Shown here piece after piece: positions 32,322-34,009 of a DNA stretch of 64,000 nt. The notes under the pieces were generated by a model, which saw only the letters and a list, made by a program, of their open reading frames with translations, was not told the DNA's origin and did not search any database. This DNA comes from an uncultured Dehalococcoidia bacterium (GTDB lineage Bacteria > Chloroflexota > Dehalococcoidia > Lucifugimonadales > G958296245): positions 124,001 through 188,000 of the forward strand of contig OY282458.1 of assembly GCA_958296245.1 (NCBI GenBank), given 5' to 3'. The position numbers were made by a program, and so were the translations under genes. Each line of letters starts with the position of its first letter. The stretch's first letter is position 1.

Positions 32322-32762
32322 ATGGCGGCAACTCGGCGAGCGGAGGCTACCTGGGAAGGCGACCTGATAACCGGCAGCGGGATCGTTAGCGCCGTCAGTA
32401 GCCGCGGTTTCACGGACCTGCCGGTATCCTGGGCGGCCAGGACGGAGGAGCCGGGCGGCAAGACCAGCCCCGAGGAGCTCGTCGCCGCGGCTCACGCTTC
32501 CTGCTACTGCATGGCTCTCTCAGCCGGCCTCGGACGCGCGGGGACTCCGCCGAAGAGGTTGGAGGTAAGCGCAACGGTGACCTTCGAGCAGGTCACGGGC
32601 GGGTTCAAGGTCGCGTCGAGCGCTCTGACGGTACGGGGCGTCGTCCCTGGCGTCGACGACGCAGGGTTCCGTAAGGCCGCCGAGGCGGCGAAGGACGGCT
32701 GCCCCATCTCCGGGGCCCTCAAGGGCAACGTGGAGCTAAGCGTCGACGCCGCGCTTGCGTAA
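32322..32762 (+). CDS. OsmC-family peroxiredoxin
   Basis: This 146-residue protein likely reduces organic hydroperoxides. Conserved parts are KTSPEELVAAAHASCYCMALS with the peroxidatic cysteine (C61; an extra C63 is present) and AKDGCPIS with C127. ATG 32322 is chosen over an upstream open frame because GGAGGG lies about 10 nt before it and the family begins there. It sits 77 nt before another redox gene, the Sec-type redoxin. Confidence 0.9.
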   Translation: MAATRRAEATWEGDLITGSGIVSAVSSRGFTDLPVSWAARTEEPGGKTSPEELVAAAHASCYCMALSAGLGRAGTPPKRLEVSATVTFEQVTGGFKVASSALTVRGVVPGVDDAGFRKAAEAAKDGCPISGALKGNVELSVDAALA

Positions 32763-32839: not shown

Positions 32840-34009
32840 ATGGTAAGAGTTGTTACGCTGCTGGCATGGGTGCTTGTACTCGCGGTATCTGCCGCCTGTG
32901 CCAGAACGGATGAGGCCGACGACCTCGCAAGCAGGCAGGTTCGCCCTGACGTAACCGCCGCCGCGCCTGCCCCGACCAACACGGCCACCGCCGTACCCGA
33001 CTCGCCCACCCCGACCAACACGGCCACCGCCGTACCCGACTCGCCCACCCCGACCAACACGGCCACCGCCGTACCCGACTCGCCCACCCCAACCAACACG
33101 GCCACCGCCGTACCCGACTCGCCCACCCCAACCAACACGGCCACCGCCGTACCCGACTCGCCTACACCGACCAACACGGCCACCGCCGTACCCGACTCGC
33201 CTACACCGACCAACACGGCCACCGCCGTGCCTAACACGCCCATACCCGACTCGCCTACTTCGGCCAACACGACCTCCGCCGCGCCTGACTCGCCTACCCC
33301 AACCAACACGGCCACCGCCGTGCCTAACACACCCACCCCAACCAACACGGCCACCGCCGTGCCTAACACGCCCACCCCGACCAACACGGCCACCGCCGTG
33401 CCTAACACACCCACCCCAACCAACACGGCCACCGCCGTGCCTAACACGCCCACCCCAACCAACACGGCCACCGCCGTGCCTAACACGCCTACCCCGACCA
33501 ACACGGCCACCGCCGTGCCTGAGCCGACTATGGCCGCCGTATCGGTCGGCTCTGACGTCGGGGATACAGCCCCGGGATTTACGCTCGCGGCGGCGGCAGG
33601 ACCCGAGGGGTCGCTGGAGTCCTACAGGGGCGACAAGAACGTGTTGCTGGTCTTCTATCGGGCGTTCTGGTGAACCTACTGCCGGGCTCAGCTCGTCGAG
33701 CTGACAGACGTTTACGGAGAGATCCAAGCCTCAAACGCGGAGGTTCTGGCGGTCAGCGTCGATAACCTTAGCGGCGCGGCCCGAGTGGTCGAGCAGTTGA
33801 ACATCCCCTTCCCCATCCTGTACGACCCCTCGCGAGAAGTACCGGAGGCATACGGCGTCTACAATCTCTTGGGCGACCGTCTGGCCACGCCGTCCACGTT
33901 CATTGTGGATATGAACGGGGTCATCAAGTGGAAGTACGTCGGCAGCTCTATAGGCGACCGGGCCTCCATTCCCGAGCTCCTCGAGCAACTAGCAGATATA
34001 GAAGGGTGA
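32840..34009 (+). CDS. AhpC/TSA-type redoxin lipoprotein with in-frame TGA (probable selenoprotein)
   Basis: The product would be 389 residues if TGA 33671-33673 is read as selenocysteine (Sec278). The N-terminus (VVTLLAWVLVLAVSAAC) looks like a lipoprotein signal with Cys20. Residues about 46-227 are 14 Thr/Pro-rich repeats. From about 234 a thioredoxin-fold redoxin follows: GDTAPGFTL, VLLVFYRAFW, then U-T-Y-C-RAQLVEL. After the TGA the frame continues with TPSTFIVDMNGVIKWKYVGS to a TGA at 34007. In relatives the U position is Cys. No ribosome site precedes the ATG; a possible extended -10 (TGGTAGACT) 7 nt upstream suggests a leaderless mRNA. A nonsense mutation is the main alternative. Confidence 0.8.
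32975..33520 (+). repeat. 39-bp coding tandem repeat (14 units) forming a Thr/Pro stalk
   Basis: The units encode TNTATAVPDSPTP in the first half and TNTATAVPNTPTP in the second half, with one degenerate unit (NTTSAAPDSPTP) at the junction. The last unit is partial. The repeats place the redoxin domain at a distance from the membrane. Confidence 0.92.
33674..33704 (+). promoter_or_regulatory. Candidate bacterial SECIS element
   Basis: Directly after TGA 33671-33673, TCAGCTC (33688-33694) pairs perfectly with GAGCTGA (33698-33704) around the loop GTC (33695-33697). The loop starts with G and lies 21 nt after the TGA. Known bacterial SECIS elements have a short apical loop with an early G, 16-37 nt after the UGA. 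This fits, but a 7-bp hairpin can occur by chance in GC-rich DNA. Confidence 0.65.

Follow-up and report, generated by a model that had tools for sequence, protein, structure and literature searches.

A predicted selenocysteine-containing redoxin on a putative lipoprotein stalk in an uncultured Dehalococcoidia bacterium

The locus and its reading frame

The analysed stretch of DNA, hereafter the window, comprises 64,000 nucleotides from an uncultured Dehalococcoidia bacterium and corresponds to positions 124001-188000 of a single contig of 2,685,284 bases, in a genome of 98.4% completeness. It contains a gene with an internal in-frame TGA codon, for which the following features were delineated:

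32840..34009, + strand: predicted selenoprotein gene encoding a stalked Prx-like redoxin of 389 aa, from ATG through the internal, putative Sec TGA to a terminal TGA (reading frame; Pfam AhpC-TSA match across the internal TGA)
32840..32899, + strand: signal peptide with a lipobox-like end, MVRVVTLLAWVLVLAVSAAC, Cys20 being the likely lipidated residue (sequence; clear lipoboxes of relatives at the same place)
32970..33519, + strand: Thr/Pro/Ala-rich stalk of ~13.7 copies of a 39-bp repeat (TNTATAVPxxPTP units; Tandem Repeats Finder)
33551..34006, + strand: redoxin domain of predicted Prx fold with the UxxC site (Pfam, AlphaFold2 model, nearest PDB structures)
33671..33673, + strand: TGA codon almost certainly read as selenocysteine, Sec278 (frame, column conservation, co-occurrence with the machinery, hairpin)
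33680..33682, + strand: TGC codon for Cys281, the second residue of UxxC (sequence, alignment)
33688..33704, + strand: bSECIS hairpin with stem 33688-33694 / 33698-33704 and apical loop GUC at 33695-33697 (comparative folding, covariation)
34007..34009, + strand: ordinary TGA stop of the selenoprotein gene (sequence)

The internal TGA is flanked by FYRAFW and TYCRAQL, giving the UxxC motif U-T-Y-C. The original prediction had placed an in-frame TGA at 33671-33673 in a redoxin active site, with the frame open for another 111 codons; both the coordinates and the count proved exact. When the codon is read through, a match to AhpC-TSA (PF00578) spans it with an E-value of 1.8e-32 and 112.3 bits, against a gathering cut-off of 26. 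The genes of relatives end with TAA, TAG or TGA near the same point as the window gene. In an annotation that treats every TGA as a stop, the gene would end at 33673 and be labelled a repeat-only protein, leaving the enzyme hidden, and homologues in dozens of Chloroflexota genomes are subject to the same misannotation.

An OsmC-like gene (Pfam PF02566, 1.2e-15) at 32322-32762 precedes the selenoprotein gene by 77 bp on the same (+) strand, and the two possibly form one transcript. Inspection of neighbouring genes by eye revealed no obvious conserved operon around the genes of relatives.

Conservation of the TGA column, Sec machinery and bSECIS hairpin

We examined which codons occupy the position of the internal TGA in homologues, counting over 98 genomes of the same order and 400 genomes of the phylum. 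Nearly all of the best homologues in the 98 genomes contain exactly one TGA, which lies at the same column in the UxxC-type loci read from this order. In total, among UxxC/CxxC-type sequences the column holds TGA in 58 distinct contexts, five Chloroflexota orthologues have Cys instead, and other sense codons are absent except in one degenerate second domain. The tally of Cys versus TGA that the original prediction had proposed as a check thus came out as expected for a selenoprotein. CxxC-type loci from other phyla, obtained in a search that reached few Chloroflexota, have Cys at this column, and related proteins with Thr there belong to the true peroxiredoxins (TxxC/TxxU type).

Some loci differed in other respects. 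A decaying copy (L038, G064:C11:3191-3640) has kept the Sec TGA, but a TAA stands two codons ahead of it and the second Cys has become Arg. In another locus (L103, genome G288), the motif reads U-G-P-D; Sec is retained and the second Cys is replaced by Asp. The Cys-form loci L096, L097 and L101 of family f87 encode an extra TlpA-like CxxC domain (NFWASWC) ~140-170 codons upstream in the same frame.

All four of the genes that the original prediction had suggested looking for, selA, selB, selC and selD, are present in the window's genome: SelA (525 bits), SelB (343 bits), a tRNA-Sec with anticodon UCA, and SelD (373 bits), which is itself a selenoprotein whose own TGA falls in frame at the established UxxK site (CAG-U-ASK). 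SelA and SelB scored above curated cut-offs in each of the 40 tested TGA-form genomes and in the window's own (41 total). As for the five Cys-form genomes, two (G356 and G195) have kept the gene and are without SelA and SelB, while in the three of family f87, SelA and SelB occur in two to three (including G377 and G418), yet the column is Cys. Two further genomes (G028 and G057) have neither the Sec machinery nor the gene. Since the sample was picked from gene-bearing genomes and Sec machinery is common in the order, this co-occurrence represents consistency and not a statistical test. The window's genome also harbours a second Sec redoxin (L057, G000:C1:1944831-1945265, - strand), a true peroxiredoxin of the TxxU type (FTSGUTDQV) whose TGA is followed by a strong hairpin.

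Downstream of the internal TGA, the hairpin TCAGCTC-GTC-GAGCTGA contains seven Watson-Crick base pairs. The original prediction was right about the 7-bp stem and about the loop GTC at 21 nt, although the stem is separated from the TGA by 14 nt and does not start 15 nt after it. Bacterial SECIS elements are described as stems of 4-16 bp closed by a 3-9 nt loop, spaced 16-37 nt from the UGA, with a minimum free energy of -7.5 kcal/mol or lower and with G among the first two nucleotides of the loop, usually as GG or GU (PMC13188914). The window hairpin agrees with this description in every respect (loop GUC of 3 nt, 7 bp, 21 nt, -11.3 kcal/mol), and its assignment to the known bSECIS range therefore stands. 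Taken alone, it is weak evidence, because a stem this long at such a position follows 1.6% of all TGAs in the window and the folding energy of the single hairpin is not unusual in comparison with dinucleotide shuffles (z 0.03).

The hairpin is decisive through its conservation. In codon-preserving shuffles of 68 non-redundant relatives, strong excess folding was confined to 42-nt windows starting 0-18 nt past the TGA, the strongest at +6 (+6 to +48; t = -9.6, n = 68); over the next 200 nt after the SECIS region, no window in these relatives went beyond t = -2.7. The hairpin overlies the QLVEL codons, and in QLxEL-type sequences the loop, located at 21 nt, starts with G in 55 of 59 cases. The wobble base of the Gln codon covaries with position 1 of the final Leu codon (32 G-C, 13 A-T and 6 G-T/A-C among Gln codons; Fisher p = 2e-7, a value inflated by relatedness among the sequences). 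Changes at both sites are synonymous, hence the compensatory changes are neutral for the protein. A second subfamily (CRRHL) possesses a different hairpin with the loop ~25 nt from the TGA, and since the SECIS differs in this way between subfamilies, RNAalifold returned no structure when applied to all sequences together.

The machinery, the column and the hairpin strongly support the selenocysteine that had been called probable; judging from these sequence data, the internal TGA is almost certainly read as selenocysteine. A Cys codon turned from TGC into TGA by nonsense mutation or by sequencing error, both raised as alternatives in the original prediction, would put a TGA at the Cys position in one genome. 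However, the TGA occurs at the same column in homologues of many families of the order and the phylum, the frame downstream is intact and followed by a hairpin conserved at synonymous sites, and the visibly decayed copy in G064 looks different (extra TAA, Cys lost). Conservation of the TGA column and of the hairpin refutes this explanation, which we regard as practically excluded. Reassignment of TGA to Trp, Gly or another residue, or its suppression without Sec, is likewise practically excluded. If a genome had no machinery at all, its in-frame TGA would present the same picture, but here the Sec machinery is complete, the same gene terminates at TGA, homologues have Cys and not Trp or Gly at the column, and SelA and SelB were present in all TGA genomes tested.

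The TGA might also act as a regulated stop with two products, a stalk protein of 277 residues and, in the presence of selenium, the full-length enzyme. Sec UGA codons always compete with termination, and the part upstream of the TGA would by itself be a complete lipoprotein with a stalk. We nevertheless consider such a dual role improbable, as there is no sign of function for the truncated form and conservation is seen in the domain surrounding and following the TGA.

We conclude with high confidence that the gene encodes a stalked, predicted exported Prx-like redoxin with selenocysteine at the internal TGA, most likely a thiol:disulfide oxidoreductase.

Active site and predicted activity

The redoxin domain was modelled by AlphaFold2 from a 16-sequence alignment with a pLDDT of 94, and the predicted model has a peroxiredoxin fold: its nearest PDB structures are the peroxiredoxins AhpE and Bcp4 (Z ~25, TM 0.9). 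Residues at the four catalytic positions of peroxiredoxins were compared in 78 UxxC domains. The Pro position is Arg in 77 of them, the Thr position is Sec in all 78, the peroxidatic-Cys position is Cys in 76, and the Arg position is Pro in 51 and Gly in 21, whereas Arg is kept in 15 of 15 TxxC/TxxU proteins. Thus, three of the four residues of the true-peroxiredoxin set PxxxTxxC(U) plus Arg are replaced and Cys alone is kept. The original prediction had equated the TGA with the first active-site Cys of AhpC/TSA redoxins. The column corresponds, however, to the conserved Thr of true peroxiredoxins, and it is the following Cys that stands at the peroxidatic-Cys position, so that equating Sec with the first catalytic Cys of a peroxiredoxin would be too simple. 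On the other hand, the domain exceeds the PF00578 gathering score and carries the UxxC motif, as Prx-like thiol:disulfide oxidoreductases do.

Starting from the frame, machinery, conservation, hairpin and fold class, which are read from the sequence, we infer Sec insertion in the cell, lipidation and chemistry as follows. SelB with Sec-tRNA-Sec would bind the 7-bp hairpin 14 nt downstream of the UGA and Sec would be placed at residue 278, as suggested by the complete Sec machinery and the conserved bSECIS. The protein would be exported, its N-terminus probably lipidated, and the flexible Thr/Pro-rich stalk would keep the head away from the membrane. In the predicted Prx-fold head, Thr is exchanged for Sec, Pro for Arg and Arg for Pro, with Cys still at the peroxidatic-Cys position, and these exchanges would make the active site thioredoxin-like (UxxC plus Pro loop). 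Outside the cell, the most likely targets of the selenolate would be disulfides, sulfenic acids or peroxides; a Se-S bond would then form with Cys281, followed by re-reduction by a donor. Because UxxC plus Pro is the arrangement of thioredoxins, thiol/selenol-disulfide oxidoreduction is the most likely predicted activity.

A real alternative, to which we assign a clearly lower probability, is that with the same Sec insertion the protein serves mainly as a peroxidase (Prx/GPx-like), reducing external H2O2 or organic hydroperoxides while the UxxC Cys resolves the selenenic acid. GPx-type peroxidases rely on Sec for catalysis, the predicted fold is closest to AhpE and Bcp peroxiredoxins, and the OsmC-like gene 77 bp upstream belongs to a family that includes organic hydroperoxide reductases. 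However, such an OsmC neighbour was shown in no other relative, the catalytic Pro, Thr and Arg of peroxiredoxins (three of four residues) are replaced, and UxxC proteins of PF00578 are classed as 'thiol:disulfide oxidoreductase' in the literature (PMC13188914).

Predicted export, stalk and relation to known redoxins

In accordance with the secretion proposed originally, the protein starts with a hydrophobic segment, and many relatives have clear lipoboxes; a strict lipobox was present in 30 of 56 distinct relatives. The window's own lipobox, VSAAC, is weak, having Ser at position -3, and does not match the strict pattern. Judging by these relatives, the N-terminus of the window protein is probably lipidated. 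The lipoprotein-stalk architecture, likewise anticipated, is common to relatives in many families. Many relatives of the FYRA[FY]W clade possess Pro/Thr/Ala(Ser)-rich stalks of ~45-170 residues, and since the stalk sequences are unlike one another, what is shared is an architecture and not one repeat.

The predicted location of these enzymes outside the membrane suggests that these bacteria spend selenium externally. Members of the DsbD/CcdA or VKOR families were not found in the window's genome, which raises the concrete question of what re-reduces an external selenoenzyme where neither is found. Tentatively, and with more doubt than confidence, we propose that lipoprotein-stalked Sec redoxin heads constitute a previously undescribed class of Chloroflexota cell-surface selenoenzymes, which may serve as a selenium-based layer outside the cell, for defence or for disulfide reduction, and be recharged through a transmembrane donor other than DsbD/CcdA or VKOR.

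Proteins of PF00578 with UxxC or UxxU are listed as Prx-like thiol:disulfide oxidoreductase selenoproteins, a predicted class with the representative WP_010940744.1 (PMC13188914, Table 1); Prx-like selenoproteins were also reported in PMC1088965, and as 'Prx-like 1' in PMC2398784. The window protein resembles the Prx-like UxxC selenoproteins in its PF00578 domain, in UxxC replacing the TxxU of Sec peroxiredoxins, in the bSECIS within the coding region and in having Cys homologues elsewhere. It differs from them in its predicted export and its long Thr/Pro-rich stalk, in a form that occurs in many Chloroflexota families, and one relative of the window gene has two Sec domains in one chain.

The best NCBIfam match of the redoxin domain, NF040769 (SelL-related redox protein), reaches 76.8 bits, which is below the curated cut-off of 120 bits, and is confined to domain residues 11-108, so that the protein falls outside this family. 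With AhpE/Bcp-type peroxiredoxins (PDB 1xxu, 4x0x and 3hjp), the protein shares the predicted fold (Z ~25, TM 0.9) at 27-33% identity, but it has UxxC for TxxC and lacks their Pro, Thr and Arg. Extracytoplasmic thiol-disulfide oxidoreductases of the ResA/TlpA type are exported and membrane-held enzymes with an active site of CxxC plus Pro. The window protein is similarly predicted to be exported and held at the membrane, with an xxC plus Pro site and an NCBIfam ResA match of 61 bits. However, this score falls short of the 170-bit cut-off, the predicted fold resembles peroxiredoxins more closely, Sec takes the place of Cys, and the stalk of repeats is long.

The words 'Chloroflex' and 'lipoprotein' are absent from the text of PMC13188914 and PMC2398784, no earlier description of the stalked form was found in the papers checked (open-access literature), and in searches of the open-access literature no paper listed was, by its title or abstract, about selenoproteins of Chloroflexota (SAR202, Dehalococcoidia, sponge). 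While 'Prx-like UxxC' selenoproteins are already known, the stalked lipoprotein form and the relative with two Sec domains look new, and their occurrence in many families of the largely uncultured phylum Chloroflexota widens the range of bacteria in which UxxC redoxin selenoproteins are known.

Two loci display unusual arrangements. At one of them (L108, G107:C11:505500-510700), from the same phylum, three adjacent genes encode stalked lipoproteins, each bearing a Sec redoxin head. The other (L122 3656-5065, genome G022) encodes a single lipoprotein of 469 residues with two tandem Sec redoxin heads and a Pro/Thr linker between them, each Sec domain having its own TGA and its own hairpin.
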